Positions 11,237 to 28,854 of a stretch of DNA of 64,000 bases are shown in pieces. The notes below the pieces were generated by a model. The model was not told the DNA's origin. It did no database searches and was given only the letters and a program-made list of their open reading frames with translations. Position 1 is the stretch's first letter; every line of letters begins with the position of its first letter. The position numbers and the translations under genes are program-made. This DNA is from Allobosea vaviloviae (GTDB lineage Bacteria > Pseudomonadota > Alphaproteobacteria > Rhizobiales > Beijerinckiaceae): positions 62,001-126,000 of the forward strand of contig NZ_LGSZ01000031.1 in the NCBI RefSeq assembly GCF_001298265.1, read 5' to 3'.

Positions 11237-12013
11237 CTAGGCCAGCATGCGCGTATCGCCGCAGACCGAGATTTCCTGGCCCGAGATCGTCTTGGCAAAG
11301 GACGAGGCGAGGAAGACGATCTGTTTGGCGATGTCGGCAGGGTCGACGAACTGCTTGATCGAAACGCCGGCGAATAGCCGCGCGGTCATTTCCTCATGCG
11401 AGACGTTGAAGCTGCGCGCCTTGTTGGCGATGACGCTCTGGATGCGCGGCCCCTCGACCAGGCCGGGGCAGATCGCATTGGCCCGGATGCCGAACTCGCC
11501 GAGTTCGGCGGAGAGCGCCTTGGTGAAGCCTATGACCCCCCATTTCGCCGCCGCATAGGGCGAGCGCAGCGGGAAGCCGTGCTTGCCGGCCTGGCTGGAG
11601 AGATTGACGATCGACGCGTTCTTCGACTGCTTGAGATAGGGCACGGCGAGCCGCGTGCAGTTGAACTGCCCGGTCAGGTCGATGGCGACGCAGGAATCCC
11701 AGTCCTCGGGCGCGATCTCGTCGACGCGGCCGGTGGGACCGGCGATGCCGGCATTGTTGACGAGGCAGTCGAGGCCGCCCAGTGCCGCCAGCGCCTCGTC
11801 CATGAGCCGGCCGACCGCGGCGCGATCCGAGACGTCGCACACCGACTGGGTCATCGCCGGGTCGCTCTGCGCCATCTCCGCCAGTGCGGCGCGGTCGACG
11901 TCGCAGATATGGACCTTCGCCCCCTCCGCCGCGAAGGCCCGCGCCGTGGCGCGGCCGATGCCATTGGCGCCAGCCGTCACCAGCACGCGCAAGCCCTTGA
12001 TCTGCAAGTCCAT
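11237..12013 (-). CDS. SDR family oxidoreductase
   Basis: 258 residues, a classical short-chain dehydrogenase. The cofactor motif is TAGANGIGRATARAFAAEG (TGxxxGIG with Ala in place of the first Gly). NNAG occurs as LVNNAGIAG. The catalytic set is Ser in LSSQAGKHG and Tyr-x3-Lys in YAAAKWG. The acidic residue after strand 2 (HICDVDRA) suggests NAD preference. It lies 27 bp downstream of the GntR gene on the same strand and is probably co-transcribed. It converges with the peptide transporter operon. The substrate, presumably an alcohol or hydroxy acid, is unknown. Confidence 0.9.
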   Translation of the reverse strand: MDLQIKGLRVLVTAGANGIGRATARAFAAEGAKVHICDVDRAALAEMAQSDPAMTQSVCDVSDRAAVGRLMDEALAALGGLDCLVNNAGIAGPTGRVDEIAPEDWDSCVAIDLTGQFNCTRLAVPYLKQSKNASIVNLSSQAGKHGFPLRSPYAAAKWGVIGFTKALSAELGEFGIRANAICPGLVEGPRIQSVIANKARSFNVSHEEMTARLFAGVSIKQFVDPADIAKQIVFLASSFAKTISGQEISVCGDTRMLA

Positions 12014-12040: not shown

Positions 12041-12796
12041 TCAGGCGCTGAGCTGGCCCGTATCCTCGATATGCGCGGCTGCAGCCGTGATGTCGTCCTC
12101 CAGCGCGGAGCGGGCAGCCGCCCCATCTCGCCGGCGCAAGGCGTCGAGCAGCCGCGCATGGGCCTGCATGGCACTGCCACCTTTGAGGCGGCGCGGCTCG
12201 TCGCGCATGTCGAGGTTGAGGATGGGGCCAGCCTTCAGCCAAAGCCGCTCGATCATCTCGATCAGGCTCGGCATGCCGGCCGCCTCATAGAGCGCGAAAT
12301 GCAGGTCGCGATTGGCCGCCACAGCGCCCGCGCTGTCGGGCGGATCGGCGCTGGCGGCCTTGCGGAAATCCGCATCATGGGCGGCGATCCGCGCGATCTC
12401 CGAAGGTGTCGCCTTGCGCGCCGCTTCCTCGGCGGCAAAGCCCTCGACCACGAGCCGCAGCCGCGTCAACTCGCGGAACTGATCCAGCGAGAGCACCGGC
12501 ACCCGCACCGCCCTGCCCGGCAGAACCTCGAGCGCCCGGTCAGCGGCCAGCCGGCTGACGGCCTCGCGCACCGGCATCATCGAGACGCCCAATGCCTCGG
12601 CCACCCGCCGCAGCGAAAGCTTCTCGCCGGGAGCGAGGCGACCCGCGACAAGAAGCGCCCGCAGTTCGCCGGTGACCCGCTCGCCGAGCGTCTCGTGCTG
12701 AAGCGCGCCGATCTCGTCGAGGGCCGATCCGTCGGGCGCGGTCGCGGGAGCGATCCGCTCGATGGCGACAGGCAAGGGCTGGACAGGGGCGATCAT
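12041..12796 (-). CDS. GntR family transcriptional regulator (FCD domain)
   Basis: 251 residues from the ATG at 12796; a GTG eight codons upstream is possible but would lie inside the candidate operator. The winged helix (about residues 35-100) contains LSLRRVAEALGVSMMPVREA, the GntR signature. The rest is all-helical and matches the FCD ligand domain, with metal-site-like residues in RDLHFALYEAAG and a late histidine in MQAHARLLDALRRRD. It is divergent from the LIV transporter operon, with a perfect 12-bp palindrome between them, and upstream of the SDR. It probably represses both directions until an organic acid effector binds. Confidence 0.9.
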   Translation of the reverse strand: MIAPVQPLPVAIERIAPATAPDGSALDEIGALQHETLGERVTGELRALLVAGRLAPGEKLSLRRVAEALGVSMMPVREAVSRLAADRALEVLPGRAVRVPVLSLDQFRELTRLRLVVEGFAAEEAARKATPSEIARIAAHDADFRKAASADPPDSAGAVAANRDLHFALYEAAGMPSLIEMIERLWLKAGPILNLDMRDEPRRLKGGSAMQAHARLLDALRRRDGAAARSALEDDITAAAAHIEDTGQLSA

Positions 12797-12810
12797 GTCT
12801 GCCAACCTAA

Positions 12811-12822
12811 CTGTGATCACAG
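12811..12822. promoter_or_regulatory. Candidate GntR operator CTGTGATCACAG
   Basis: A perfect 12-bp palindrome, followed by a further half-site (AGATCACG). It lies 15 bp upstream of the GntR ATG and 82 bp upstream of the divergent LIV binding-protein gene. The size and central dyad fit FadR/FCD-type operators. Its role is inferred from position. Confidence 0.5.
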
Positions 12823-12903: not shown

Positions 12904-14166
12904 ATGTCAGACCTGTTGAAGACGACCCGACTCTCGCGCCGGCAGGCGCTGGCCGGGCTCGGCGCCGGCGCCGCGACCGGGCTCATCGCCAGCCCGTCCC
13001 TCATCCTGGCTCAGACACCCGACGCAATCCGCTTCGGCCACCTGACGCCGCGCACCGGCTTTCTCGGGCCGCTCGGCGAATATGGCGTGATGGCGGTCGA
13101 TCTCGCGGTCGAGGAGATCAATGCGGCCGGCGGCGTCAACGGCCGCAAGCTCGAAGCGCTGAAGGAAGACTCGGTCAACCCGCAGACCGCCTCGACCAAG
13201 GCAGAGCGCATGATCGAGCGCGACAAGGTCGTCTGCATCCTTGGCGAGATTTCCTCGGCCTCGTGCCTGACGATCTCGCAGGTCGCGGCACGCAACAAGA
13301 CGCTCTTCGTCAACACGGGCGGCAATTCCGATGCGCTACGCGGCGAGAGCTGCAACCGCTACATGTTCCATGTCGAGCACCAGAACTCGATGTATGTGAA
13401 GAGCGCCGGCCGCTCGCTGATGGCGCAAGGGCTGGTGAAGGGCAAGAAGTGGTTCTCGCTGACCGCCGACTACGCTTTCGGCCATGATCTGAGCAAGGTC
13501 GCCAAGCGCTTCATGGAGGCCAATGGCGGCCAGTTCGCCGCCGACAAGCTGGTGCCGACCGACGCGACCGACTTCTCGGCGCTGCTGCTCGAAATCCGCG
13601 CGGCCAAGCCCGACCTCGTGATCTCGAACCTCGCCGGCAACCAGATCACCAACTTCCTGAAGCAGTATTCGGAGTTCGGCCTGACCTTCCCGGTCGCGGG
13701 CTTCGGCTTCGACACGGCGCTGGCCTGGGCCGCCGGCAAGGACAATTTCGGCGGCATCTGGCCCTGCGTCTGGCACCATTTGATCGACACCCCCGGCACC
13801 AAGGCTTTCGTTGCGGCCTTCACCAAGAAATACGGCAAGCCGCCCGAGAACCAGGCCTGGGGTGACTACATGGCCGTGAAGATCATGGCCCAGTCGATGA
13901 ACGAGCTGAAATCGACCGAGACCGCCAAGATCCTGGCGCATTGGGAGAAGGGCGCGAAGTTCGACGTGCTCAAGGGCCGCGAGGGCTATTTCCGCGCCTC
14001 CGACCACCAGCTCATCAGCGAGATGTACACCATCACCGCCCTGCCCGCCGCGCAGGTCAAGAACCAGTGGGACCTGTTCACCTCCTCAGCCCCGGTGCCC
14101 GGCCCCAACGAGGACATGGAGGTCATCGCCACCAGTGGCGACGAGGCGGTCTGCAAGATGAGCTGA
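12904..14166 (+). CDS. Branched-chain amino acid-type ABC transporter substrate-binding protein
   Basis: 420 residues. The N-terminus (TTRLSRRQALAGLGAGAATG) has a twin-arginine-like signal, so export may be by Tat. The mature protein begins at about QTPDAIRFGHLTPRTGFLG and follows the LivJ/Peripla_BP_6 pattern, with GVMAVDLAVEEINAAGGVNG, an IGEISSASCLTIS-like segment and a YAFGHDLSKVAKRF hinge region. A GGAGGAA ribosome site precedes the ATG. It heads the operon containing LivH and the LivMGF fusion. Cargo may be a hydroxy or keto acid rather than an amino acid, judging by the dehydrogenase and cleavage enzyme downstream. Confidence 0.92.
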   Translation: MSDLLKTTRLSRRQALAGLGAGAATGLIASPSLILAQTPDAIRFGHLTPRTGFLGPLGEYGVMAVDLAVEEINAAGGVNGRKLEALKEDSVNPQTASTKAERMIERDKVVCILGEISSASCLTISQVAARNKTLFVNTGGNSDALRGESCNRYMFHVEHQNSMYVKSAGRSLMAQGLVKGKKWFSLTADYAFGHDLSKVAKRFMEANGGQFAADKLVPTDATDFSALLLEIRAAKPDLVISNLAGNQITNFLKQYSEFGLTFPVAGFGFDTALAWAAGKDNFGGIWPCVWHHLIDTPGTKAFVAAFTKKYGKPPENQAWGDYMAVKIMAQSMNELKSTETAKILAHWEKGAKFDVLKGREGYFRASDHQLISEMYTITALPAAQVKNQWDLFTSSAPVPGPNEDMEVIATSGDEAVCKMS

Positions 14167-14322: not shown

Positions 14323-15198
14323 TTGCTCACCCTCTTCATCCAGCAGGTGCTGAACGGGCTGCTCGACGGGGTCTATTACCTCCTGATCGCGCTCGGCCTG
14401 TCGCTGATCTTTTCGCTCGGCGGCATCGTCAACCTGGCCCATGGCGCCTTCTATGCGATCGGCGCCTATCTGACGATCGTGCTTGCCCCGCATATCGGCT
14501 TCGGCGGCGCCATGGTGGCCTCGCCGCTGCTGGTCGCGCTGATCGGCATTGTCGTCGAACGCAGCCTGTTCCAGCGCTTCTACCGATCGGACCCGATCCT
14601 CTCGTTGCTGCTGACCTTCGGGCTGGCTATGGTCGCGGAGCAGTCGCTGCGGATGATCTTCGGGGCGCCGCCGCTGTCCTTCTCGATTCCGCCGGCCTTG
14701 CGCGGCCAGATCTTCATCGGCGATTTCATCTATTCGCGTTACCGGGCGATGCTGCTCCTGATCGCGGCCGGGTGCGTGCTGGGGCTGTGGTTCCTGCTCC
14801 AGCGCACCGCTTTCGGCCGCGTCGTGCGGGCCGGCGTGCAGAACCCGGACATGGTTGGCGCGCTCGGCATCTCCCTGCAGCCCTACATGGTCGCGGTCGC
14901 CGGCATCGGCATCGGATTGGCGGGGCTGGCCGGTGTGCTGCTGGCGCCGATCTATTCGATCCATCCCGCCATGGGGCAGGAGATCATCACGCCGGCCTTC
15001 GTCGTGGTTGTCATCGGCGGACTCGGCTCCTTCTGGGGCGTGGTGGTGGCGGCCCTGATGGTCGGGCTGGTCAAGGGCATCACCATCGGGCTCGGCTACA
15101 CGCAATGGTCGACCGCGGTGATCTACCTGATGATGCTTCTGGTCCTGCTGTTCAGGCCACGCGGCCTGTTCGGCGAACGCATCCAGCGCTTCGAGTGA
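14323..15198 (+). CDS. Branched-chain amino acid-type ABC transporter permease LivH
   Basis: 291 residues starting at a TTG with AGAGG seven bases upstream; no better ATG is present. Hydrophobic helices run throughout. The LivH landmark LSLIFSLGGIVNLAHGAFYA (NLAHG motif) is near residue 40, and the coupling region is FGRVVRAGVQNPDMVGALG. It is an inner-membrane half of the LIV-type channel; the other half is the N-terminal part of the following fusion protein, which starts 8 bp downstream. Confidence 0.92.
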   Translation: MLTLFIQQVLNGLLDGVYYLLIALGLSLIFSLGGIVNLAHGAFYAIGAYLTIVLAPHIGFGGAMVASPLLVALIGIVVERSLFQRFYRSDPILSLLLTFGLAMVAEQSLRMIFGAPPLSFSIPPALRGQIFIGDFIYSRYRAMLLLIAAGCVLGLWFLLQRTAFGRVVRAGVQNPDMVGALGISLQPYMVAVAGIGIGLAGLAGVLLAPIYSIHPAMGQEIITPAFVVVVIGGLGSFWGVVVAALMVGLVKGITIGLGYTQWSTAVIYLMMLLVLLFRPRGLFGERIQRFE

Positions 15199-15205
15199 GG
15201 ACGCG

Positions 15206-17731
15206 ATGACACCCGCACAGCGCGACCACGCGCCCCTCTTCATCGCAGCTGCGGGGCTCCTGGCCCTGCCCTTCCTGATGCATGTCATCGGGCTCGGCAC
15301 GACGTCGGCGACCGAGATTGTCGTCTTCGCCATCGCCTGCATGGCGCTGAACATCCTCGTCGGCACGACAGGGCTGGTTTCCTTCGGCCATGGCGCCTGG
15401 TTCGGGCTGGCCGCCTATGCCGCCGGGCTGATCCAGCGCAACTGGCTGCCCGGCCAGTTCGCCCTGCCGATTCTGCTCGCCGTCCTGTTCGTCGGGCTGA
15501 TCGCCTTTGCGTTTGGGGCGCTGATCCTGCGCCGCAAGGGGGTCTATTTCTCGCTGCTGACGCTGGCTCTGGCGGCCATGACCTACTCCGTCGCCTTCCG
15601 CTGGACGGCTCTGACCGGCGGCGAGGACGGGCTCGGCGGCATCAAGCGTCCGCTCTTCCTGGGCATCGATTTCGAGCAGGCCTCGCGCTTCTATGTCCTG
15701 GTCGCGCTGATCGGCATGGCGGTGGTCTACGGCCTCTGGCGCTTCCACCGCTCGCCGGTGGGCACGGTGCTGGTGGCGATCCGCGAGAACGAGCAGCGCG
15801 CGCGTTTCCTCGGCTATGCCACCGACCGCTACAAGCTGATCGCCTTCACGCTCTCGGCGGCGCTGACGGGGCTGGCCGGCTCGCTGCTGCTGTTCAACAA
15901 CCGCATGACCTCGGCCGAGCCGATCTCGGTCGCCTTCTCCGGCGAATTGCTGGCGATGGTCGTCATCGGCGGCATGCGCTCCTTCCTGGGGCCGGCGCTG
16001 GGCGCACTGTTTTTCGTGATCTTCCGCGACTACCTCTCCAGCATCACGCCGAACTGGCTGTTCTGGTTCGGCCTACTCTTCGTCAGCTTCATCGTGTTCT
16101 CGCCGACCGGCCTCGTCGGCTTCGGCGAGCGCCTCTTGCGACCCTTCCGCAAGCAGGTCGCAGGCGATGCCGCAATGTCGGAACGCAAGGCCGGCACCGT
16201 GACGCTGCCGGCCTTCATGAAGTCCAGCGACCCTATCGATGGGCCGATCCTGACGGCACGGGGGCTCGCCAAGAGCTTTGGCGGCATCAAGGCGGTCGAG
16301 GGTGTCGACATCACCATGGCCGACCGCCAGCTGCATGCGCTGATCGGGCCCAACGGCGCCGGCAAGACCACGGCCTTCAACCTGATCTCGGGGCTGTTCC
16401 CGCCCGATCACGGGACGGTGCATCTGCGCGGTCGCCAGATCGGAGGGATGTCGCCCGAGGCGATCACGCAAGCCGGGATCGGGCGCGCGTTCCAGATCAC
16501 CAACCTGTTTCCGACGCTCTCGGTCGCGGAAAATGTGCGGCTCGCCGTGCAGGCCCGCGCCGCCGAGCGCTTCGGCTTCTGGCGGCCCTCGGCAGCGTTG
16601 GCGGAGGTCAACGCGCAGACGTCGACGGTGATCGACACGATGGGCCTGCGCGGCATCGAGACGGCGGAGGCCGGATCGCTGAGCTATGGCGGCCAGCGCC
16701 TGCTCGACATGAGCCTGGCGCTGGCGACGAAGCCGCGCGTGCTGCTGCTCGACGAGCCGCTGGCGGGCCTGGCGGCGGCCGAGCGCGAGCGTGTCGGCAA
16801 TTTGATCAAGTCGATCTCGACCGACCTGCCGGTGCTGCTGGTCGAGCACGACATCGACCGCGTCTTCGCCATCGCCGACCATGTCACGGTGATGAACGAG
16901 GGTTCGGTGCTGGTCGATGGCACGGTCGAGGATGCGCGCTCGTCGCCGCGCGTGCAGGAGATCTATATCGGCTCCGGCGCGCATGCGCTGGCGGAGAAGC
17001 CGCGCCAGAGCGCGGCCCGACCCGGCGTCCTGCTCGGCCTCGACAAGGTCGACACCTTCTACGGCAAGAGCCATATCCTGCGGCAGGTCTCGCTCGACGT
17101 GCACGAGAACGAGATCGTCGCGCTGCTCGGCCGCAACGGCGCCGGCAAGTCGACCCTGCTCAAGACCATCACCGGCATCGCCCCACCGGCGAGCGGCAGC
17201 GTCACGCTAGCCGGCCAGGACATCGCCGGACAGCCGCCCGCCGCGATCGCGCGGGCCGGCATTGCCTATGTGCCGCAGGGCCGCGGGCTCTTCGCAGGCA
17301 TGAGCGTCAAGGACAATATGGAGCTCGGGCGGCTCAAGCGCGTCACCGGCAACGGCACGCATTGGGACGACGAGAAGATCTTCGCCTTCTTCCCGCGCAT
17401 CAAGCAGCGCTGGCATTCGCCCGCCGACTACCTGTCGGGCGGCGAGCAGCAGATGGTGGCGGTGGCGCGCGCGCTTTCGGGCGATACCCGCGTGCTCCTG
17501 CTCGACGAGCCCTTCGAGGGGCTGGCGCCGGCTGTCGTGGAGGAGCTGTTCGAGGCCTTCGACAAGCTCCGCCAGGAGATCGCGATCGTGATCGTCGACC
17601 ACCATCTCGATCTCGCGCTGGCGCTGTCGGACCGGACCGTCGTGCTTGAGCGCGGCAGCGTCGTCCACACCGGCCCCTCACGCGCGCTGAGCCAGGATCT
17701 CGCGCTCCGGCGTCAGGTGTTGTGGCTGTGA
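15206..17731 (+). CDS. LivM-LivG-LivF triple fusion: ABC permease plus two ATPases
   Basis: 841 residues with no internal stop or frame change. Residues 1 to about 310 are the LivM permease (LVGTTGLVSFGHGAWFGL, and NEQRARFLGYATDRYKL as coupling loop). Residues about 345-585 are LivG: Walker A GPNGAGKTT near 381, LSYGGQRLLDMSLAL, Walker B VLLLDEPLAGLA near 512. Residues about 610-841 are LivF: Walker A GRNGAGKSTLLKTITG near 641, LSGGEQQMVAVARAL, Walker B VLLLDEPFEGLAPA near 764. LivM-LivG fusions are common in Hyphomicrobiales; having LivF on the same chain is unusual as far as I know. All motifs look intact, so a working transporter is expected. Confidence 0.93.
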   Translation: MTPAQRDHAPLFIAAAGLLALPFLMHVIGLGTTSATEIVVFAIACMALNILVGTTGLVSFGHGAWFGLAAYAAGLIQRNWLPGQFALPILLAVLFVGLIAFAFGALILRRKGVYFSLLTLALAAMTYSVAFRWTALTGGEDGLGGIKRPLFLGIDFEQASRFYVLVALIGMAVVYGLWRFHRSPVGTVLVAIRENEQRARFLGYATDRYKLIAFTLSAALTGLAGSLLLFNNRMTSAEPISVAFSGELLAMVVIGGMRSFLGPALGALFFVIFRDYLSSITPNWLFWFGLLFVSFIVFSPTGLVGFGERLLRPFRKQVAGDAAMSERKAGTVTLPAFMKSSDPIDGPILTARGLAKSFGGIKAVEGVDITMADRQLHALIGPNGAGKTTAFNLISGLFPPDHGTVHLRGRQIGGMSPEAITQAGIGRAFQITNLFPTLSVAENVRLAVQARAAERFGFWRPSAALAEVNAQTSTVIDTMGLRGIETAEAGSLSYGGQRLLDMSLALATKPRVLLLDEPLAGLAAAERERVGNLIKSISTDLPVLLVEHDIDRVFAIADHVTVMNEGSVLVDGTVEDARSSPRVQEIYIGSGAHALAEKPRQSAARPGVLLGLDKVDTFYGKSHILRQVSLDVHENEIVALLGRNGAGKSTLLKTITGIAPPASGSVTLAGQDIAGQPPAAIARAGIAYVPQGRGLFAGMSVKDNMELGRLKRVTGNGTHWDDEKIFAFFPRIKQRWHSPADYLSGGEQQMVAVARALSGDTRVLLLDEPFEGLAPAVVEELFEAFDKLRQEIAIVIVDHHLDLALALSDRTVVLERGSVVHTGPSRALSQDLALRRQVLWL

Positions 17732-17755
17732 CGTTCGAAACGTCCCGAACTTTGC

Positions 17756-17873
17756 GCCGTCATCCCGGGCGAAGCGAAGCGCAGACCCGGGATCCATGCC
17801 TGACCCTATCCGGCAAATGCTCCGGCATGGATCCCGGATCGGTGCCGCTGCGCGGCTTGTCCGGGATGACGGC
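17756..17873. repeat. Palindromic intergenic repeat, type A, copy 1
   Basis: The ends GCCGTCATCCCGG and CCGGGATGACGGC are perfect 13-bp inverted repeats. Nested inside are ACCCGGGATCCATGCC and GGCATGGATCCCGGAT. Near-identical copies occur at 36738-36841 and 52440-52542, so this is a dispersed REP-like family. This copy separates the LivMGF fusion from the dehydrogenase gene. Confidence 0.8.
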
Positions 17874-17906
17874 GCCTTTGTATCGAGTGGATCAGGAACT
17901 CTTCGC

Positions 17907-18848
17907 ATGACCAGCATCGCCATCGTCGGTTCGGGCCTGATCGGCCGCGCCTGGGCCACCGTTTTCGCCAGCCATGGCTGTTCCGTCGCGCTGCATGACG
18001 TCGTGCCCGGCGCGGCTGAGGCGGCGCGCGCCCATATCGGCACCAATCTCGAGGAACTCGCGGGCCATGGGCTGGTCGAGAATCCCAAGGGATCGCTCGC
18101 CCGGATCCGCGTCGCCCGCGACCTCGCCGACGTGCTGACCGGCGCCGATCTCGTGCAGGAAAACGGGCCGGAAACCGTCGCGGCCAAGCAGCAGCTCTTC
18201 GCCGAGATGGACGCGCTCTGTCCGCCCTCGACCATCCTGGCGTCCTCGACCTCCTTCATCATGGCCTCGGTGTTCAGCGAGACGCTGGCGGGCCGGGCGC
18301 GCTGCCTCGTGGCGCACCCTGTCAACCCGCCCCATCTCGTGCCGATCGTCGAGCTCGCGCCGGCGCCCTGGACCGACCCGGCGGTGGTCGAGCGGGCCAA
18401 GGCGATCTACGAGCAGGCCGGCCAGGTGCCGATCGTGCTGCGCAAGGAAAAGCCCGGCTTCGTTCTGAACCGCCTTCAGGCCGTGCTGCTGGCCGAGGCC
18501 TTCCGCATCGTTGGCGAAGGCGTCGCCAGCGCGGAGGATGTCGACAAGACGATCCGCGATGGCTTGGGCCTGCGCTGGTCCTTCATGGGCCCGTTCGAGA
18601 CGATCGAGCTGAATGCGCCCGGCGGCATCCCCGATTACTGCGCGCGCTATTCCGCCTCGCTCGATGCGATGGTGAGGTCATCCGAAGGGCTCGGCAATCC
18701 TTTCGACGCCGCGACGGTCGAGACCGTGATGAGCGAATGGCGCGGCGCGCAGTCGCCGGACCGGGTGAAGCGCCTCAGCGACTGGCGCGACACGCGGCTG
18801 GCGGCGCTGCAGGCCCACAAGCGCGGCTCGCAGCGCAAGCCGGGATGA
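17907..18848 (+). CDS. 3-hydroxyacyl-CoA dehydrogenase-like NAD-dependent hydroxy acid dehydrogenase (lambda-crystallin/L-gulonate dehydrogenase type)
   Basis: 313 residues from the ATG at 17907. The Rossmann motif is IAIVGSGLIGRAWATVFASH, followed by an acidic residue after strand 2 (LHDVV), so NAD is expected. QENGPE, SSTSFIM and the catalytic histidine in LVAHPVNPPHLVPIVELAP are all present. The C-terminal helical dimerisation domain contains FVLNRLQAVLLAEAFRI and GLGLRWSFMGPFE. It is soluble and cytoplasmic. It lies directly ahead of a beta-keto acid cleavage enzyme, so it probably oxidises a beta-hydroxy acid to the keto acid that enzyme uses. The precise substrate is unknown. Confidence 0.88.
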   Translation: MTSIAIVGSGLIGRAWATVFASHGCSVALHDVVPGAAEAARAHIGTNLEELAGHGLVENPKGSLARIRVARDLADVLTGADLVQENGPETVAAKQQLFAEMDALCPPSTILASSTSFIMASVFSETLAGRARCLVAHPVNPPHLVPIVELAPAPWTDPAVVERAKAIYEQAGQVPIVLRKEKPGFVLNRLQAVLLAEAFRIVGEGVASAEDVDKTIRDGLGLRWSFMGPFETIELNAPGGIPDYCARYSASLDAMVRSSEGLGNPFDAATVETVMSEWRGAQSPDRVKRLSDWRDTRLAALQAHKRGSQRKPG

Positions 18849-18858
18849 AAAGCCTCAG

Positions 18859-18943
18859 CCGTCATTGCGAGCACAGCGAAGCAATCCAGGGGCGGCCGCG
18901 CTCGACGTCCTCCTGGATTGCTTCGCTGCGCTCGCAATGACGG
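18859..18943. repeat. Palindromic intergenic repeat, type B
   Basis: CCGTCATTGCGAGCACAGCG… is mirrored by …CGCTCGCAATGACGG. Two arms of about 31 bp (ending CAATCCAGG / CCTGGATTG) are almost perfectly complementary around a central GC-rich spacer. This GTCATTGCGAGC-type palindrome resembles intergenic repeats widespread in alphaproteobacteria. It lies between the dehydrogenase and the cleavage enzyme. Confidence 0.75.
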
Positions 18944-18987
18944 ACCCGTTCCAGACCCTGACCCGAACGTCACGAAGGACGCCCAGC

Positions 18988-19920
18988 ATGGCCAAGAACC
19001 GCAAAGTCATCATCACCTGCGCGGTCACCGGCGCAATCCATACGCCGTCGATGTCGCCTCACCTGCCCGTAACGTCGGACGAGATCATCGATGCGGCGGT
19101 CGGCGCGGCCGAGGCCGGTGCCGCCCTCGTCCATGTCCATGCCCGCAATCCCGTGACCGGCCAGCCCGACCAGTCGCCCGAGGCCTTCGAGCCCTTCCTG
19201 AAGGTGATCAAGCAGCGCTCGAACTGCGTCATCAACATCACCACCGGCGGCGCCCCCACCATGGGTGTCGAGGAGCGGCTGGGCCCCTGCGCGCATTTCA
19301 AGCCGGAGGTCGCCTCGCTCAACATGGGCTCGATGAATTTCGGGCTCTACCCGATGCTGGCCCGCTTCAAGGACTTCAAGCACGACTGGGAGAAGCCCTA
19401 TCTCGAAGGCTCGAAGGACCGGATCTTCAAGAACACCTTCCAGGACATCGAGAACATCCTCACCACCTGCGCAGAGAATGGTACCCGCTTCGAGATCGAG
19501 TGCTACGACATCGGCCATCTCTACACGCTGGCGCATTTCGTCGATCGCGGGCTGGTGAAGCCGCCCTTCTTCGTCCAGTCGGTCTTCGGCATCCTCGGCG
19601 GCATCGGCCCGCACCCCGAAGACGTCATCCACATGAAGCGCACGGCCGACAGGCTGTTCGGCGATGCCTATCAGTGGTCGGTGCTCGGAGCCGGCCGGCA
19701 CCAGCTGCCGATCGCCGCCATGGCGGTGTCGATGGGTGGCAATCTGCGCGTCGGGCTGGAAGACTCGCTCTGGCTCGGGCCGGGACAGTTCGCCAAGTCG
19801 AACGCCGATCAGGTCCGCGCGGCGCGGATGATCATCGAGGGGCTGGGGCTGGAGGTCGCGACGCCAGAGGACGCCCGCGAGGTCCTTCAGCTGAAGGGCG
19901 CCGACAAGGTCAATTTCTAG
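18988..19920 (+). CDS. Beta-keto acid cleavage enzyme (BKACE, DUF849)
   Basis: 310 residues from the ATG starting MAKNRKVIITCAVTGA. BKACE proteins are Zn-dependent TIM barrels that condense a beta-keto acid with acetyl-CoA and release acetoacetate plus a new acyl-CoA. Family landmarks are TCAVTGAIHTPSMSPHLPVT, the zinc-site LVHVHARNP (HVH), INITTGG, LNMGSMNFG, and GAGRHQLPIAAMAVSMGGN with a conserved glutamate in GLEDSLWL. Paired with the upstream dehydrogenase and fed by a LIV-type importer, it suggests growth on a beta-hydroxy acid. Substrate subclass was not assigned. Confidence 0.92.
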   Translation: MAKNRKVIITCAVTGAIHTPSMSPHLPVTSDEIIDAAVGAAEAGAALVHVHARNPVTGQPDQSPEAFEPFLKVIKQRSNCVINITTGGAPTMGVEERLGPCAHFKPEVASLNMGSMNFGLYPMLARFKDFKHDWEKPYLEGSKDRIFKNTFQDIENILTTCAENGTRFEIECYDIGHLYTLAHFVDRGLVKPPFFVQSVFGILGGIGPHPEDVIHMKRTADRLFGDAYQWSVLGAGRHQLPIAAMAVSMGGNLRVGLEDSLWLGPGQFAKSNADQVRAARMIIEGLGLEVATPEDAREVLQLKGADKVNF

Positions 19921-20040: not shown

Positions 20041-21651
20041 CTACAGGCTGTCCCGCCGGATCAGGTCGGCGGCTTTCTCCGCGATCACCAGGACCGCCGC
20101 CTGCGTGTTGCCGGAGACCACTGCCGGCATGACGGAGGCGTCGGCGATGCGCAGACCATCGACTCCATGGACACGCAGTTGCGGATCGACCACCGCGCCC
20201 GGCCCCTGCCCCATCCGGGCGGTGCCGCAGGCGTGATAGATCGTCTGGCCGTTGTCGCGGGCGAAGGCGAGCCAATCCGCATCGCTGTCGCATGTCGGGC
20301 CAGGTGCCATCTCATAAGCGCGATAGGCATCCATCGCTGGCTGGCCGACGATGGCGCGGGCGATCTTCATGCCGTCGATCATGCAGTGCTGGTCGGTGGC
20401 GGTTGCGAGGAAATTCGGGCGGATCGCGGGAGGCGTATCGGCGTCGGGCGCGCGGGCATGGATGGTGCCGCGCGATTCCGGCCGCAATTGCGTCACGCCG
20501 ATGGTCATGCCGGGTTCACGGTCGAGCCTGCGCTCGGCGGCGTTGGCGTAGCTCGCATGCATGAAGAAGTACTGGATGTCGGGCCCCTCGATCTCCGGCC
20601 TTGTCCGCACGAAGCCATGCGCCAGTCCGGTGCCGAGTGTCAGGATGCCCTTCCGCGTCAGGAAATACTGCGCCACAGCAGCCGCCAGCCGCCAGCCGCG
20701 TGTCGTCTCGTTCAGCGTCACCGGCAGCTTCACGCGCCAGTTCATGCGCGTGCAGAAATGATCGCTGTAGTTGGCGCCGACGCCCGCCAGCTCATGCCGC
20801 AGCGGCAGGCCCGCCGCGGCCAGCACCGCCGGGTCGCCGATGCCCGACAATTCCATGAGATGTGGCGTCTGGATCGCACCGGCCGTCAGAACGACGCTGT
20901 GGCGGGCAGCGGCCTGCCGCTCGACGCCGTCGATGCGGTAGGTGACGCCCGAGGCGCGGGGCCCGTCGAGAGCGATGCGCAGGACATGCGCGCCGGTCAG
21001 GACGCGCAGATTGGGACGGTTGCGAACCGGCGCCAGATAGGCATCGGCGGCGCTGACCCGCCGGCCATGGCGCTGGTTGACCTGATAGTAGCCGAAACCA
21101 TCCTGCACCACGCCATTATAGTCGCCGTTGCGCGGGTAGCCCGCCTGCCCGGCCGCTGCGATGAAGGCCTCGGCGACCTCCGGCCGCTCCTTGACGTCAG
21201 TCACCGGAAAGGGGCCGTCGCGGCCGCGCGTCGCGTCGCCCTGCCCGTCATAGGCTTCGAGCTTGCGGAAATAGGGCAGCACGTCGGCAAAACTCCAGCC
21301 GGTGCAGCCAGCCTGAGCCCAGCCGTCGAAATCCTGGGCCTGGCCACGGACATAGATCATGCCGTTGATCAGCGTCGAGCCGCCCAATCCCTTGCCGCGC
21401 GGGATGGCGATCGCGCGATTGCGGGTGTTCTCCTCCGGCTCCGTCTGGAAGCGCCAGTTGAACTCCGGATTGACCAGGAGCTTGCTGAAGCCCGCAGGGA
21501 TCGGAATCCAGAAGCCCTTGCCCTCGCCGCCCGCCTCCAGCACCAGCACGCTGCGGCGGCCGTCCTCGCTGAGGCGGTTGGCGAGCACGCAGCCGGCCGT
21601 GCCGCCGCCGACGATGATGTAGTCGTAAGCTTCGCTGGTAGGCGTCGTCAT
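20041..21651 (-). CDS. GMC family FAD-dependent oxidoreductase (choline dehydrogenase-like)
   Basis: 536 residues. The N-terminal FAD motif is YIIVGGGTAGCVLANRLSED. The GMC signature GKGLGGSTLINGMIYVRG lies near residue 85, and VLTAGAIQTPHLMELSGIGD is the second signature. The C-terminal active site has the His in IYHACGTARMG and the Asn in VVSGNTQA, the usual His-Asn pair. Members oxidise alcohols to aldehydes or ketones. It is the last gene of the minus-strand operon and overlaps the E1 gene by 4 bp (ATGA). The alcohol is unknown. Confidence 0.92.
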   Translation of the reverse strand: MTTPTSEAYDYIIVGGGTAGCVLANRLSEDGRRSVLVLEAGGEGKGFWIPIPAGFSKLLVNPEFNWRFQTEPEENTRNRAIAIPRGKGLGGSTLINGMIYVRGQAQDFDGWAQAGCTGWSFADVLPYFRKLEAYDGQGDATRGRDGPFPVTDVKERPEVAEAFIAAAGQAGYPRNGDYNGVVQDGFGYYQVNQRHGRRVSAADAYLAPVRNRPNLRVLTGAHVLRIALDGPRASGVTYRIDGVERQAAARHSVVLTAGAIQTPHLMELSGIGDPAVLAAAGLPLRHELAGVGANYSDHFCTRMNWRVKLPVTLNETTRGWRLAAAVAQYFLTRKGILTLGTGLAHGFVRTRPEIEGPDIQYFFMHASYANAAERRLDREPGMTIGVTQLRPESRGTIHARAPDADTPPAIRPNFLATATDQHCMIDGMKIARAIVGQPAMDAYRAYEMAPGPTCDSDADWLAFARDNGQTIYHACGTARMGQGPGAVVDPQLRVHGVDGLRIADASVMPAVVSGNTQAAVLVIAEKAADLIRRDSL

Positions 21652-23825
21652 GCAGCCGCCCCGGCAAGCGGCGTGCCGCGCTCGGCCATCACCCTGGCGA
21701 TTCCAGCCATGACCTCCTCGCGCCCGGCAAAGGCGGCGCGTTCGAGCACCTTGGAGATCGTCGGCGAGGCCTCGCGGCCGTGGACGCGCTGCACAGGCTG
21801 GTCGAGCCAGTCGAACAGGCGGCGGTGCAGTTCGTCGGCCAACATCGCCCCATAGGAGGTGCCGCGCGCGCCCTGCTCGACGATCAGGACATTATGCGTC
21901 TTGCGCACGCTGGCACCGATCGCCTCCCAGTCGAGCGATGCGCGGTCGAGCGTGCGCAGATCGACGATTTCCGCGTCGACGCCGAGCGCCTCGACGGCCT
22001 CCAGGCTGCGATGGACCATGGCCGAATAGGTCAGGATGGTGAGGTCGCGGCCCTCGCGGACAATCCGTGCCTTGCCCAGCGGGATGGTGAAGTCGAGATC
22101 CGCGGCCGGGATCAGACCGTTCATCTGGTAGAGATCGACATGCTCGATCACCAGCACGGGATCGCTGCCCTTCAGCGCCGCATTCATCAAGCCGATATAG
22201 TCCTGTGGGGTCGAGGGCGCGACGATGCGCCAGCCCGGCGCCGTCGCGAAGACGCCGGCAGGGTCGAGCGAATGCTGCGAGCCATAGCCCGTGCCCATCG
22301 CGATCTTGCTGCGCAGAACGAGGGGTACGTCGGTGGTGCCGCCGAACATGTGTCGAGCCTTGCCGATCTGGTTGAAGACCTGGTCGGCAGCGACCCACAT
22401 GAAGTCGGGATACATGAACTCGATGATCGGTCGGTAGCGCCCGTCCATGGCAAGCCCGCCGGCGAGGCCGGTGAAGGCGTTCTCGCTGATCGGCGTGCCG
22501 AGCACGCGGCCGGGGAATGCAGCCGCCAGTCCGCGCGTGGCGCCATTCGTGCCGCCCTTCAGGCGGTGGATGTCCTCGCCCATGATGACGATGGACGGGT
22601 CGGTCTCCATCCGGCGATGCAGCACGTCGGCGATGGCATCGACGAACTTGCGCTCGACCGTCGGGCCGGTCGGCGGGCCTTTCGATGACAGAGCCGGCAA
22701 TTCGCCGCGCAGGCCGACATCGACGAAGGCGGTGTCGGGCCAGAGGTCGGGGCGGATGCGGCGGCGGTTACCATCCGGCTCCAGCAATCGCCCGGCGATG
22801 TCCTTCATCAGGGCGACGCAGCGCTCGCGCAGATCGGCGACGGCACCGTCATCGATCAGTCCCAGCGCCGTCATCTCGGTCGCGACACGCGCCAGCGGAT
22901 CGCGGGCGCGCCAGGCGGTTTCCTCGTCCTTGGAGCGGTAACCAAAGGCGGAGCCGGGCAGCGGCCCGTTCTGGTGGAAATAGCGGTAGACTTCGAGTTC
23001 GATCAGGGCCGGCCCCTTGCCGGCGCGCAGCAGCGAGGTGGCTTCCTGCGTCGCCAGATGCACGGCGAGCGGGTCCATGCCGTCGACGCGCCAGGCGGGG
23101 ATGCCGAAACCCGGCCCGCGACCGGATAGGCGCGCCTCGCAGGTCGCCTCGTCGACATGGGTGGCAACCGCGTAGAGGTTGTTCTCGACGACAAAGAGCA
23201 GCGGCAGGGCCCAGGCGGCGGCGAGGTTCATCGTCTCCAGCGTCGAGCCGATATTGATCGCGCCGTCGCCGAAATAGGTCACCGCGATATCGCCTGTGCC
23301 GGCGAGCTTGTGGGCCATGGCGGCGCCGGCCGCCAGCGGCACGCCGCCGCCCACGATGGCATTGGTGCCGAGCGCCCCCGCCTCGATCCAGCGCAGATGC
23401 ATTGAGCCACCGCGGCCATGGCCGAAGCCGGGCTCGAGCCCGAGGATCTCCGCCAGGCTCCGGTGCAGCATGCCTTCGACGGGCGCGGCCAAATCGGCGA
23501 CGGGATCGAGCGTCGGCGCGAGATAAGACAAAGTCTTGGCGAGGAACTGGTGATGGCCGCGATGCGAGCCGTTGACCTGGTCGGAGGCGCGCAGGCCGAT
23601 CACGGAGCCGACGGCGCCGCCCTCCTGCCCGATCGAGGAATGGGCCGGGCCATGGACCAGCCCCTCTCCGGCGAGTTCGAGCACGCTCTCCTCGAAGGCG
23701 CGGATCAGGTGGAGCTGCGTCAGCATGCTGCCGAGCAGCGCCGGATCGGCAGCCTTCCAGTCGGCGGGGGTGGAGCGCAGCGCCGTCCAGGGCGCCTGCG
23801 CGTGGAGCTTTTCGCGGACGGGCAT
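21648..23825 (-). CDS. Thiamine-diphosphate-dependent dehydrogenase E1, alpha and beta subunits fused
   Basis: 725 residues from the ATG at 23825, preceded by GGAGGAG; a GTG two codons earlier is less well placed. Residues about 1-350 are E1-alpha, with the TPP motif GDGAINIG…VVENNLYAVATHV. Residues about 375-725 are E1-beta, with VIMGEDIHRLKGGTNGAT and ISENAFTGLAGGLAMDGRYRPI. E1 proteins decarboxylate 2-oxo acids and normally pass the acyl group to an E2 lipoyl protein. No E2 or E3 gene is in this operon or anywhere in the window. Its partner may be elsewhere, or it may act alone. Acetoin-, pyruvate- or branched-chain-type substrates are all possible. Confidence 0.92.
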   Translation of the reverse strand: MPVREKLHAQAPWTALRSTPADWKAADPALLGSMLTQLHLIRAFEESVLELAGEGLVHGPAHSSIGQEGGAVGSVIGLRASDQVNGSHRGHHQFLAKTLSYLAPTLDPVADLAAPVEGMLHRSLAEILGLEPGFGHGRGGSMHLRWIEAGALGTNAIVGGGVPLAAGAAMAHKLAGTGDIAVTYFGDGAINIGSTLETMNLAAAWALPLLFVVENNLYAVATHVDEATCEARLSGRGPGFGIPAWRVDGMDPLAVHLATQEATSLLRAGKGPALIELEVYRYFHQNGPLPGSAFGYRSKDEETAWRARDPLARVATEMTALGLIDDGAVADLRERCVALMKDIAGRLLEPDGNRRRIRPDLWPDTAFVDVGLRGELPALSSKGPPTGPTVERKFVDAIADVLHRRMETDPSIVIMGEDIHRLKGGTNGATRGLAAAFPGRVLGTPISENAFTGLAGGLAMDGRYRPIIEFMYPDFMWVAADQVFNQIGKARHMFGGTTDVPLVLRSKIAMGTGYGSQHSLDPAGVFATAPGWRIVAPSTPQDYIGLMNAALKGSDPVLVIEHVDLYQMNGLIPAADLDFTIPLGKARIVREGRDLTILTYSAMVHRSLEAVEALGVDAEIVDLRTLDRASLDWEAIGASVRKTHNVLIVEQGARGTSYGAMLADELHRRLFDWLDQPVQRVHGREASPTISKVLERAAFAGREEVMAGIARVMAERGTPLAGAAA

Positions 23826-23849
23826 CAGCACCCTCCTCCGGATGCGGTC

Positions 23850-25459: not shown

Positions 25460-26164
25460 CTAAATCCCGAGATAGGCGGTCTTGATGTGGGGATCGGCCA
25501 GCAGGCCGGCGCCGGTGTTCTCCATGGCGATGCGGCCGTTCTCGATGACATAGGCGCGCTGCGCGATCTTGAGCGCGTGGAAGGCCTTTTGCTCGACCAG
25601 CAGCACCGTCGTGCCCATCGCGCAGATGCGCTCGACGATGCCGAACATCTGCTGGACGATGATGGGCGCGAGGCCGAGTGACGGTTCGTCCAGCATCAGC
25701 AGGCGGGGCTTTGCCATCAGGCCGCGCGCGATCGCGACCATCTGCTGTTCGCCACCCGATAGTGAGCCGGCGAGCTGGTCGAGCCGCTCGCGGACGCGCG
25801 GGAAGATCTCCAGCACCTCCTCGAAGCGCGCGGCCGAGCCCTCGCGGGCATTGGCGTGGTAGCAACCCATCATGACGTTGTCCCGGACGGTCATGACCGG
25901 GAAGACCTGGCGCGCTTCGGGCACCATGACGAGGCCGCGCCCGACGATGTCGGCGGGAGTCGCGCCGGCGATCTGGTGGCCGTCGAACTCGATCGTGCCG
26001 GAGCCGGGCTTCACCAGGCCGGAGATCGCGCGCAGCAGCGTCGTCTTGCCGGCGCCGTTGGCGCCGATGATGGTGACGACCTCGCCCTTGCCGATCCGGA
26101 TCGAGACGTCCTGGAGGATCGTGGTGCGGCCATAGCCGGCCGTCAGCTCAGAGACCTTGAGCAT
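25460..26164 (-). CDS. Branched-chain amino acid-type ABC transporter ATP-binding protein LivF
   Basis: 234 residues, typical for LivF. Walker A is GANGAGKTTLLRAISGL, the signature is LSGGEQQMVAIARGLMAKPR, Walker B is LLMLDEPSLGLAP, and the switch His region is VLLVEQKAFHAL. In most LivF proteins this segment reads VEQN, so Lys replaces Asn. It overlaps the end of the LivM-LivG fusion gene by 17 bp, and ends 9 bp before the AroE-like gene, so importer and enzymes share an operon. Confidence 0.93.
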   Translation of the reverse strand: MLKVSELTAGYGRTTILQDVSIRIGKGEVVTIIGANGAGKTTLLRAISGLVKPGSGTIEFDGHQIAGATPADIVGRGLVMVPEARQVFPVMTVRDNVMMGCYHANAREGSAARFEEVLEIFPRVRERLDQLAGSLSGGEQQMVAIARGLMAKPRLLMLDEPSLGLAPIIVQQMFGIVERICAMGTTVLLVEQKAFHALKIAQRAYVIENGRIAMENTGAGLLADPHIKTAYLGI

Positions 26165-27977
26165 TGGCGAAATCCTCTCCGAGATAGGCCTCGATCACCC
26201 GGCGGTCCCTGACCACGGACTGCGGATCGCCCTGCGCGATCACCTTGCCGGAATCGATCACGATGATGCGGTCCGACAGGCTCATGATCGCCTGCATGTT
26301 GTGCTCGATGGCGATCACCGTGACGCCTGCATCGCGGATCGCGCGGATCAGCGCGACCATCGTCTGCGTGTCGGTCTGGCTCTGGCCGGCCATGACCTCG
26401 TCGAGCAGCAGGATGTCGGGCTCGGTGGCGAGCGTGCGGGCGACCTCGAGGCGCTTGAGATCGCCGATCGGCAGGTTGCGCGCCTCGACCTCGCGGACAT
26501 GCTGCAGGCCGACCAGCGACGACACGCGCAGCGCCACCGCCCGCGCCGAGGCGACGTCGGGATGGCGCATGAAGGCACCGATCATGATGTTCTCGATCAC
26601 CGTCAATTTGCCGAAGGGCTGCACGATCTGGAAGGTGCGGCCGATACCGGCCCGCGCGAAGGCGTCCGGGCTCGCCGGCGTCGTCGCCTTCCCGCCCGAA
26701 ACGATGGCGATGCTGCCGGACGAAGGCTGGAGGAAGCCTGAGATCTGGTTGAACAGCGTCGTCTTGCCGGCACCGTTGGGGCCGATGATGCCGAGAATCT
26801 CGCCCCGCTTCAGCATCATCGAGACGTCGTCGGTCGCCGTCAGGCCGCCGAAGCGCATGACGAGGTTCTTGGTTTCCAGCATCGTCTCGCCAGGCGTCCC
26901 GGTGATCTGGCGCAGCGCCGGGGCTTCCTGCTCCGGCCGCGGCTGCCCACCCGGCAGCCTGTCGATCCAGCGCCCGACGCGAGCCCCGTAGGTGCCGACG
27001 AGCCCGCCTGGCAGCGTCAGCGTGATCAGCACGAGCACCGTGCCGTAGACGAAGCCGTGCAGGCCGTTGGCGGAGGCGCCGAGCCAGCCGCGCGCCAGTT
27101 CCGCGATCGGCACCACCAGCACCGTGCCCAGCAAGGGCCCGACGACGGTGCCGAGCCCGCCGATGAGGGCAAACATCGCGACCTCGATCGAGGTCGAGAG
27201 CGAGAACATCGTCGCCGGCTCGAGGAAGGTCGTGTACATCGCGTGGAACGAGCCGATCAGGCTGGTCAGCACGGCCGAGATCACGACGGCCTTGAGCTTG
27301 ACCCGCGTCGGGCTGATCCCGGCGGCCGAGGCCGCATCCTCGCGCTCGCGCACGGCGGTCAGATAATAGCCGAGCCGCGCATTGCGGATGGCGTAGGACA
27401 CGACCAGCGTCAGCAGCAGCAGGCCAAACGCGATGATCAGGTAGTTGAACTTGTCCTGGAAGATCATCCAGGCCCAGCCGAGCTTCAGCGGCACGATCAG
27501 CCCTGCCGAGCCGCCGGTGACGCCGTGAAAATGGATCGCCAGCAGGCGGATGACCTCGAGGAAGGCGATCGTCGCCAGCGAGAAGAACGGCCCGCGCAGG
27601 CGAAAGCAGGGATAGCCAATGCAGACCGCGACGACGGCCGAAAGCGCCGCGCCCGCCCACATGCCGATCCAGGGCGAGAGGCCGAGATGCTGGATCAGCA
27701 GCGCCGTGGTGTAGCCGCCGATGCCATAGAACATCATATGGCCGAGCGAGAGCTGGCCGGCATAGCCGCCGACGATGTTCCAGGCCGTCGACAGGCCGGC
27801 GAAGACGCAGATCGTCACGAAGACGTGGATGATGAAGGCGGAGTCGCTGAGCGCCGGGACGATCAGCAGCAGCGAGAGCAGGATGAGCGCGACATAGACG
27901 CGCGGATGGGCCAGGGCTGAAAGCCGGCTCGGCTTCGGCACGGCGACGGGAGCGACGGCGGCGGTGCGGGAGGTCAT
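26148..27977 (-). CDS. LivM-LivG fusion: ABC transporter permease plus ATPase
   Basis: 609 residues. Residues about 1-330 form the LivM membrane domain (YAGQLSLGHMMFYGIGGYTT, and REREDAASAAGISPTRVKLK as the coupling loop). Residues about 355-609 form LivG: Walker A GPNGAGKTTLFNQISGFL near 400, then LPIGDLKRLEVARTLATEP in place of the usual signature, and Walker B ILLLDEVMAGQSQTD. In most LivG proteins the signature region reads LSYGxQRxLEIARAL and Walker B DEPxAGL. Pro is replaced by Val here, as in one LivG subgroup. It sits 4 bp after LivH. Compare the 841-residue LivMGF at 15206, which also absorbed LivF. Confidence 0.92.
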   Translation of the reverse strand: MTSRTAAVAPVAVPKPSRLSALAHPRVYVALILLSLLLIVPALSDSAFIIHVFVTICVFAGLSTAWNIVGGYAGQLSLGHMMFYGIGGYTTALLIQHLGLSPWIGMWAGAALSAVVAVCIGYPCFRLRGPFFSLATIAFLEVIRLLAIHFHGVTGGSAGLIVPLKLGWAWMIFQDKFNYLIIAFGLLLLTLVVSYAIRNARLGYYLTAVREREDAASAAGISPTRVKLKAVVISAVLTSLIGSFHAMYTTFLEPATMFSLSTSIEVAMFALIGGLGTVVGPLLGTVLVVPIAELARGWLGASANGLHGFVYGTVLVLITLTLPGGLVGTYGARVGRWIDRLPGGQPRPEQEAPALRQITGTPGETMLETKNLVMRFGGLTATDDVSMMLKRGEILGIIGPNGAGKTTLFNQISGFLQPSSGSIAIVSGGKATTPASPDAFARAGIGRTFQIVQPFGKLTVIENIMIGAFMRHPDVASARAVALRVSSLVGLQHVREVEARNLPIGDLKRLEVARTLATEPDILLLDEVMAGQSQTDTQTMVALIRAIRDAGVTVIAIEHNMQAIMSLSDRIIVIDSGKVIAQGDPQSVVRDRRVIEAYLGEDFANAQGL

Positions 27978-27981
27978 GGGC

Positions 27982-28854
27982 TCACTCCGTCCCGCGGCCG
28001 AAGCCGAACAGGCCGGTCGGCTTGAAGATCAGGATCAGGATAAAGATCGCGAAATAGACGACCTCCTTGAGGTCGGGCGCGATGTAGTAGCCCGACAGGC
28101 TGTCGACGATGCCGATGATCATCGCTCCCGCAAAGGCGCCGTACATGCTGCGCATGCCGCCGAGCACGACCACGACGAAGGCGGTCAGCACGAAATAGGA
28201 GCCGATCGTCGGTGTGACCGGGAACATCGGCGTGATCAGCGCGCTGGCGAGTCCGACGCAGGCCGCGCCGAGCCCAAACGAGATGATGTAGATGCGGTCG
28301 ACCCGCACGCCCATCAGCAAGGCGGCATTGCGGTTCTGCGCGGTGGCGCGGATGGCGCGGCCGAGCGGCGTCTTCTGCATGAAGAGATGCAGCCCCGCGA
28401 CCAGCGCCAGCGCGCAGGCGAGGATGACGATCTGCCCCGACAGCACCGTATAGCCGCCGAGCGAGACCGACTGACGGGCGCTGGGCGTCGAGACCGAATA
28501 GAGATCGGCCCCGAAGATCATCAGCGCCAGGTTCACCAGCGCGGTCGAGAGGCCGACGGTGGCGAAAATCTGAATGTGCTCGTCGGCGTTCAGCAGCGGC
28601 TGGATGATAAAGCGCTGCACCAGCGCACCGACGCAGAACAGCAGCACGACGACCGGCACGGCCGAGACGTAAGGGTGCCAGCCGAGCTTGGTGGCGAGCA
28701 GATAGGTCGCGTACATGCCGATCATCAGGAACTCGCCATGGGCGAAGTTCACGACGCGGACGATGCCGAAGATCAGCGTCAGTCCCACCGCGATGATGGC
28801 GTACATGCTGCCGAGCATGATGCCGTTGAGCAGCAACTGGACAAGCACGTCCAT
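27982..28854 (-). CDS. Branched-chain amino acid-type ABC transporter permease LivH
   Basis: 290 residues of mostly hydrophobic helices. LivH landmarks are VGLTLIFGIVRVVNFAHGEF (NFAHG), the coupling region LGRAIRATAQNRNAALLMG, and a C-terminal ILIFKPTGLFGFGRGTE. The ATG start gives MDVLVQLLLNGIMLGSMYAI, a standard LivH beginning. It is separated from the binding-protein gene by a 124-bp gap holding two stem-loops. Confidence 0.93.
   Translation of the reverse strand: MDVLVQLLLNGIMLGSMYAIIAVGLTLIFGIVRVVNFAHGEFLMIGMYATYLLATKLGWHPYVSAVPVVVLLFCVGALVQRFIIQPLLNADEHIQIFATVGLSTALVNLALMIFGADLYSVSTPSARQSVSLGGYTVLSGQIVILACALALVAGLHLFMQKTPLGRAIRATAQNRNAALLMGVRVDRIYIISFGLGAACVGLASALITPMFPVTPTIGSYFVLTAFVVVVLGGMRSMYGAFAGAMIIGIVDSLSGYYIAPDLKEVVYFAIFILILIFKPTGLFGFGRGTE

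Follow-up and report, generated by a model that had tools for sequence, protein, structure and literature searches.

The window analysed here, a stretch of 64,000 nucleotides from Allobosea vaviloviae, contains a gene (livMGF) that joins in one reading frame a LivM-type permease and the two ATPases, LivG and LivF, of a HAAT (LivFGHM/UrtBCDE-like) importer. The locus raises the question of whether such a triple fusion is genuine and rare, how it arose, and what the transporter built around it carries. We consider it probable that the gene encodes a genuine and widespread HAAT half-transporter with clade-specific ATP sites, and that this transporter imports a C5-C6 3-hydroxy or 3-oxo acid.

Domain architecture of the fused gene

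The frame is open from its ATG to the stop codon and encodes 841 residues (Table 1). As the earlier note had read it, it is uninterrupted and carries a complete set of motifs in each ATPase half (GPNGAGKT, LSYGGQ, LLLDEP and H548 in LivG; GRNGAGKS, LSGGEQ, LLLDEP and H799, with the H-loop VDHH, in LivF). Pfam placed PF02653 at residues 34-289 of the chain, together with two ABC_tran stretches, and when the pieces were scored apart the nearest models were UrtC for the permease and UrtD/LivG and UrtE/LivF for the ATPases. In a tree of the nucleotide-binding domains (NBDs, 102 rows) a branch with 100% support parted the 51 LivG domains from the 51 LivF domains without exception, and the half bearing the additional switch histidine is thus a true LivF. 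A LivG origin of this half was considered and set aside on the basis of the same tree, in which a swap of only a few residues would leave no trace.

Only LivH and the binding protein are encoded separately, as had been claimed, and both lie directly upstream: livH ends seven bases 5' of the livMGF start and is itself preceded by the binding-protein gene. The locus therefore has the composition of a HAAT system, with two PF02653 permeases (the second at LivH residues 9-275), one LivG-type and one LivF-type ATPase (by the NBD tree), and a PF13458-type periplasmic binding protein in the operon.

Several neighbouring features were recorded by eye. The spacer that follows livMGF (17732-17906) contains a palindromic-looking intergenic repeat, which lengthens the open reading frame of the 3-hydroxyacyl-CoA dehydrogenase at its N-terminus, probably spuriously; there may be another such stretch near 18865-18960. 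Immediately before the operon, 9274-11148 (+) encodes a dipeptide/oligopeptide-type ABC protein of 624 aa with two ATPase domains, and farther downstream 21648-23831 (-) holds a 727-aa frame that resembles the alpha and beta subunits of a dehydrogenase E1 joined into a single chain, adjoined by a GMC oxidoreductase-like gene.

Table 1. Features of the livMGF locus and of the second LIV system in the window (residue numbers refer to the protein named).
Feature	Position	Strand	Evidence
Short-chain dehydrogenase (SDR)	11237..12013	-	family search
GntR/FCD regulator, divergent	12041..12820	-	family search
Substrate-binding protein	12904..14166	+	PF13458
livH, second permease, presumed partner	14323..15198	+	PF02653 at residues 9-275
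livMGF triple fusion, 841 aa	15206..17731	+	ORF; one-frame orthologues; Pfam
LivM-type permease domain, residues 34-289	15305..16072	+	PF02653
LivM-LivG linker, residues 312-346	16139..16243	+	alignment; mean majority-residue frequency 0.65
LivG-type ATPase, residues 348-589	16247..16972	+	profile scores; NBD tree
LivG signature LSYGGQ, residues 492-497	16679..16696	+	identical in 113/113 type I proteins
LivG switch histidine H548	16847..16849	+	sequence/motif alignment
LivG-LivF linker, residues 590-609	16973..17032	+	alignment; mean majority-residue frequency 0.67
LivF-type ATPase, residues 611-836	17036..17713	+	profile scores; NBD tree
LivF-half switch histidine H799	17600..17602	+	alignment; Gln or Lys in 77/77 separate LivF rows
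3-hydroxyacyl-CoA dehydrogenase family	17907..18848	+	NF004783, 410.6 bits, cut-off 347
BKACE	18988..19920	+	NF053538, 555.4 bits, cut-off 430
Second LIV system, LivF	25460..26164	-	
Second LIV system, LivM-LivG fusion	26148..27977	-	
Second LIV system, LivH	27982..28854	-	

Distribution and authenticity of the fusion

Within the genus a full-length, one-frame orthologue (77-100% identity) was found in 48 of the 67 genomes, and 51 of the 67 hold either an orthologue or a relative of about 42% identity. Beyond the genus, one-frame homologues (uninterrupted matches at E <= 1e-120, in samples that overlap and include the window's own genome) were present in 36/149 genomes of the family (38 had a match, two of them, G1017 and G1099, with internal stops only), in 43/297 of the order (45 matched; G792, with stops, and G663, the source of sequence L123, were dropped), in 10/289 of the class (11 matched; G137, with a stop, was dropped) and in 23/398 of the phylum (24 matched; L123 was dropped). 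Outside the fetched loci these junctions were judged by the open-frame and stop columns alone, which can mislead, as L123 (see below) illustrates. On plasmids, 21 of the 30 matches listed were in one piece (1530 records matched).

The earlier note had presented the architecture as rare, and had named a common occurrence as the finding that would speak against it. The fusion is found in many genomes from genus to phylum, and this part of the proposal falls: the livMGF architecture is known, common and widespread in related bacteria. RefSeq already names such proteins 'branched-chain amino acid ABC transporter ATP-binding protein/permease', and one of them, WP_099515769.1 from Microvirga ossetica, has the same M-G-F architecture, is 67.6% identical, lies in an operon of the same order and differs in no essential way from the window's protein. 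Literature searches of open-licence PMC text returned no title on a LivMGF fusion, nor any characterisation of this RefSeq family (e.g., WP_099515769.1).

Could the frame nevertheless have been produced by a missed stop or a frameshift joining three adjacent genes? Such pseudo-fusions do occur. Among the 141 distinct fused protein sequences that we gathered (some clipped at contig ends) there is one apparent frameshift, L123, whose LivG runs out of frame after the Walker B region and reads on into LivF, whereas in its near relative L168 (genome G007) LivM-LivG and LivF are two proteins. L123 was, however, the only one of the 141 with a short LivG match, none of the others had a short LivF match, and the window's protein carries no such sign. 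The fusion is common to 113 distinct sequences of type I (the group of the window's protein, defined below), its junctions are open in independent genomes (48 of 67 within the genus), and the linkers of 48 aligned type I orthologues are constant in length (gap-free except for two rows at one column), although less conserved in letters than the domains (mean majority-residue frequency 0.80-0.82 in the latter). We thus give the artefact explanation practically no credence, and the sequencing frameshift against which the earlier note had cautioned was not found.

Origins of the triple fusions

A careful tree of 42 systems, built from concatenated domains, resolved the fused transporters into three types. 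Types I and II form one clade (support 99/99), to which the window's protein belongs as a monophyletic M-G-F protein in one frame, and type III, with the same M-G-F order, forms another (100/100), with a 100/100 branch between it and types I+II. The tree keeps 8 of 113 type I, 5 of 9 type II and 9 of 18 type III sequences, and omits near-copies, L123 and the very long branch L161. Type III adjoins three LivM-LivG fusions with a separate LivF (supports 94/85, 93/81 and 98/89). Forcing all fused rows into a single clade costs 139 log units (p-AU 2.5e-36) and was rejected; a quick tree of 73 rows also spoke against it (p-AU 7.9e-59 with L123, 0.004 without). L123 itself had been a candidate for a third origin of the fusion, and was dropped from the careful tree because its LivG tail is out of frame relative to L168. 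As two gains require the fewest changes on the tree, the triple fusions most likely arose twice, although the tree taken alone would also accommodate a single ancient fusion that later came apart several times.

Type II transporters (e.g., Rhizobium sullae WP_027513123.1) share the LivF histidine of the window's protein but are only about 40% identical to it, and two of their four annotated examples lie beside a shikimate dehydrogenase gene. One type II system, carried by a Roseomonas plasmid (L249), has an IS5 family transposase annotated between the binding protein and LivH (4001-4819).

The layout described earlier for the second LIV system of the window (LivM-LivG fused, LivF separate; Table 1) holds. 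The accompanying idea, that two stages of one process are visible side by side, does not: in the tree this system (L009) is placed with a separate-gene system (100/99) and apart from livMGF, which points to an independent LivM-LivG fusion rather than to a precursor of livMGF. Its LivG is off consensus (signature LPIGDL, Walker B LLLDEVMAGQ), its LivF H-loop reads VEQK and, by eye, it adjoins shikimate dehydrogenase-like and SDR-like genes. It is one of 14 further LIV-like systems in the 5.6-Mb genome (L009 and L152-L164), of which 12 have separate LivM and LivG and two have them fused; one of these systems, L161, may be a urea system.

ATP-site residues

Each ABC site consists of the Walker A, Walker B and H-loop of one ATPase and the signature of the other (PMC7756269). 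At the site made of the LivG Walker A and H-loop and the LivF signature, the histidine is present in all systems compared except the frame-shifted L123. The opposite site differs between fused and separate systems: the H-loop of the LivF half carries histidine in 113/113 type I, 9/9 type II and 4/4 further proteins assigned by similarity (126/126), and Gln or Lys in separate LivF proteins, namely in 27/27 systems and in 50/50 further LivF rows (among the 77 are near-copies and at least one duplicated locus, L226 being L162; the 50 are LivF-model matches from one 60-genome sample and form a biased set, 30 of them being the highest-scoring). Type III has Gln in 18/18, as does L123. Among known systems, E. 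coli LivFGHM-LivK/J (L192), a HAAT transporter with the same five functions, whose LivG and LivF each fall with their fused counterparts in the NBD tree, differs in having separate genes and the LivF H-loop VEQN rather than VDHH; the Thermotoga maritima ABC ATPase 1JI0, the PDB chain that scores best against the LivF half (6.9e-46), is likewise a separate protein with VEQN. The histidine as a feature of clade I+II was defined in this analysis, and open-licence PMC text yielded no title on a Gln/His switch in LivF.

Considering that the histidine clade is nested among Gln rows, the simplest reading is that the histidine was regained in clade I+II. The LivG signature that would complete the second site is LSYGGQ in all 113 type I proteins, departing from LSGGQ at the third position. 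With the LivF histidine that separate LivF proteins lack, this signature makes the second site look consensus-like, and both ATP sites of the window's transporter may conform to the consensus. Histidine and signature are not coupled across the whole of clade I+II, since type II has the histidine but a poorer LivG signature (LPHGAK in 6/9, LAHGEK in one, LSHG in two). In type III the LivG signature has lost its serine in 18/18 (LPHVDR-like in 17, LPHGEK in one).

One may tentatively read these residues as a 'resymmetrised' importer, in which the histidine would have been regained with the fusion in clade I+II and two consensus sites reached in type I, while ordinary Liv systems would keep one consensus and one Gln-switch site, and type III, independently fused, a strongly degenerate second site. 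We hold this reading to be possible but doubtful. In MRP1, according to PMC7756269, Gln or Asn in place of the H-loop histidine of NBS2 leaves transport wild-type-like, so a separate LivF with Gln could still form an active site, and the histidine may leave activity unchanged.

Operon context and substrate

The synteny counts refer to those loci with enough sequence among the best 80 of 419 matching stretches (drawn from genomes with a name or title), i.e., among the closest relatives. LivH and the binding protein were upstream in 70/70 of these, the GntR regulator was divergent in 63/67 and the SDR present in 64/67; downstream, the 3-hydroxyacyl-CoA dehydrogenase was the next gene in 70/75 and BKACE followed in 69/75 (both enzymes in 69, with 6 lacking the two). 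A second set of loci at 63-70% identity (L264-L273) held both enzymes in 8/10; the sequence of the remaining two is short and breaks off shortly after livMGF. Among distant type I loci (53-59% identity; L252, L254-L263) a homologue of neither enzyme was found in the fetched stretch (0/11). As these distant transporters are without the two enzymes nearby, the cargo probably differs within type I.

The window's BKACE belongs to its family by PF05853 (365.6 bits) and by its match (6e-145) to 8RIO, a solved and assayed BKACE; the model whose cut-off it exceeds in Table 1, NF053538, describes a 3,5-dioxohexanoate:acetyl-CoA acetone transferase. On a plasmid of Paracoccus denitrificans (NZ_CP141053.1, locus L253), in a stretch that the record leaves unannotated, each of the seven genes has a homologue and the gene order is preserved. 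The BKACE there, 68% identical to the window's, is the last gene of the operon of the triple-fused transporter and is identical over 310 aa to PDB 8RIO. By this identity, it is the solved enzyme BKACE15 of P. denitrificans that closes this operon. A conserved operon ending in BKACE15 suggests the import of a C5-C6 3-hydroxy or 3-oxo acid, and our best guess, from gene context, is that such an acid rather than leucine would be the cargo. The branched-chain amino acid cargo implied in the earlier note was too strong a statement in view of this operon.

An ordinary branched-chain amino acid importer with unrelated enzymes downstream would agree with the automatic annotation and with the HAAT domains found throughout. 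We nonetheless regard it as unlikely: the LivG and LivF scores lie far below the NCBIfam LivFGHM equivalog cut-offs (191.0 of 362 and 175.9 of 441, respectively), the pairing with BKACE and the 3-hydroxyacyl-CoA dehydrogenase is kept among the close relatives (69/75, as above), and the genome already has its 14 other LIV-like systems. A urea (Urt) transporter is more improbable still. The UrtE and UrtD models do score above cut-off on the whole chain, but this score sums two ATPases; each half alone falls below (UrtD 218.2/304.1, UrtE 223.3/285.8), as does the permease (UrtC 161.3/296.2), and we discarded the two equivalog calls accordingly. The binding protein, moreover, reaches only 107.7 of 492.75 on the urea-system model.

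The alternative with the most weight is an aromatic-derived or sugar-derived acid (e.g., a ring-cleavage product), in whose breakdown BKACE would serve at a late step. The BKACE15 context is read as aromatic degradation by the authors of the paper (PMC11961710), triacetate arises in phloroglucinol breakdown (PMC10470551), and deoxyribonate is handled by an SDR together with a BKACE (PMC6365646). No ring-cleavage or lactonase gene lies beside the operon in two annotated plasmid copies, which argues weakly against such a substrate (the other loci were searched for the window's own genes only). We see this alternative as a possibility, albeit an improbable one, and favor a C5-C6 3-hydroxy or 3-oxo acid as the cargo.

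Proposed mechanism and implications

The single chain provides the LivM-type membrane half together with both ATPases; its partners would be the separately encoded LivH half, in a 1:1 ratio, and a periplasmic binding protein. From general knowledge of ABC importers, we infer that the tethered ATPases form the usual LivG/LivF sandwich beneath the LivH/LivM pore; it is reasonable to expect that a fixed stoichiometry and the tethering of both NBDs would constrain assembly, as proposed earlier. An AlphaFold model of the single chain without LivH (48 sequences) reached a mean pLDDT of 81.6 and a pTM of 0.69, with pLDDT below 50 at residues 131-144 and 234-242 and, at the junctions, at 315-323 and 589-591. 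A structure-library comparison of this model listed 50 matches, all of them ATPase chains and so uninformative on the permease or the arrangement, and a search of the LivH sequence against PDB chains gave no match up to E 1. The second ATP site would be built from the LivF Walker A and H-loop against the LivG signature, and is expected to be consensus-like in type I. The C5-C6 3-hydroxy or 3-oxo carboxylic acid thought to be imported would be oxidized to a beta-keto acid by one of the two dehydrogenases (of the SDR or the 3-hydroxyacyl-CoA dehydrogenase family), and BKACE would cleave the latter with acetyl-CoA to yield acetoacetate and an acyl-CoA.

We reason that the ATP-site pattern and the connection of the operon with BKACE15, and not the architecture, give this locus its interest. 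The operon link gives a structurally solved enzyme a likely dedicated importer, and would narrow the list of candidate substrates. No row examined breaks the correspondence between ATP-site pattern and fused clade, and with this pattern the exchange of single residues could show what the second site does in heterodimeric importers. If the 'resymmetrised' reading holds true, clade I+II and type III would offer a ready comparison for the second ATP site in importers.
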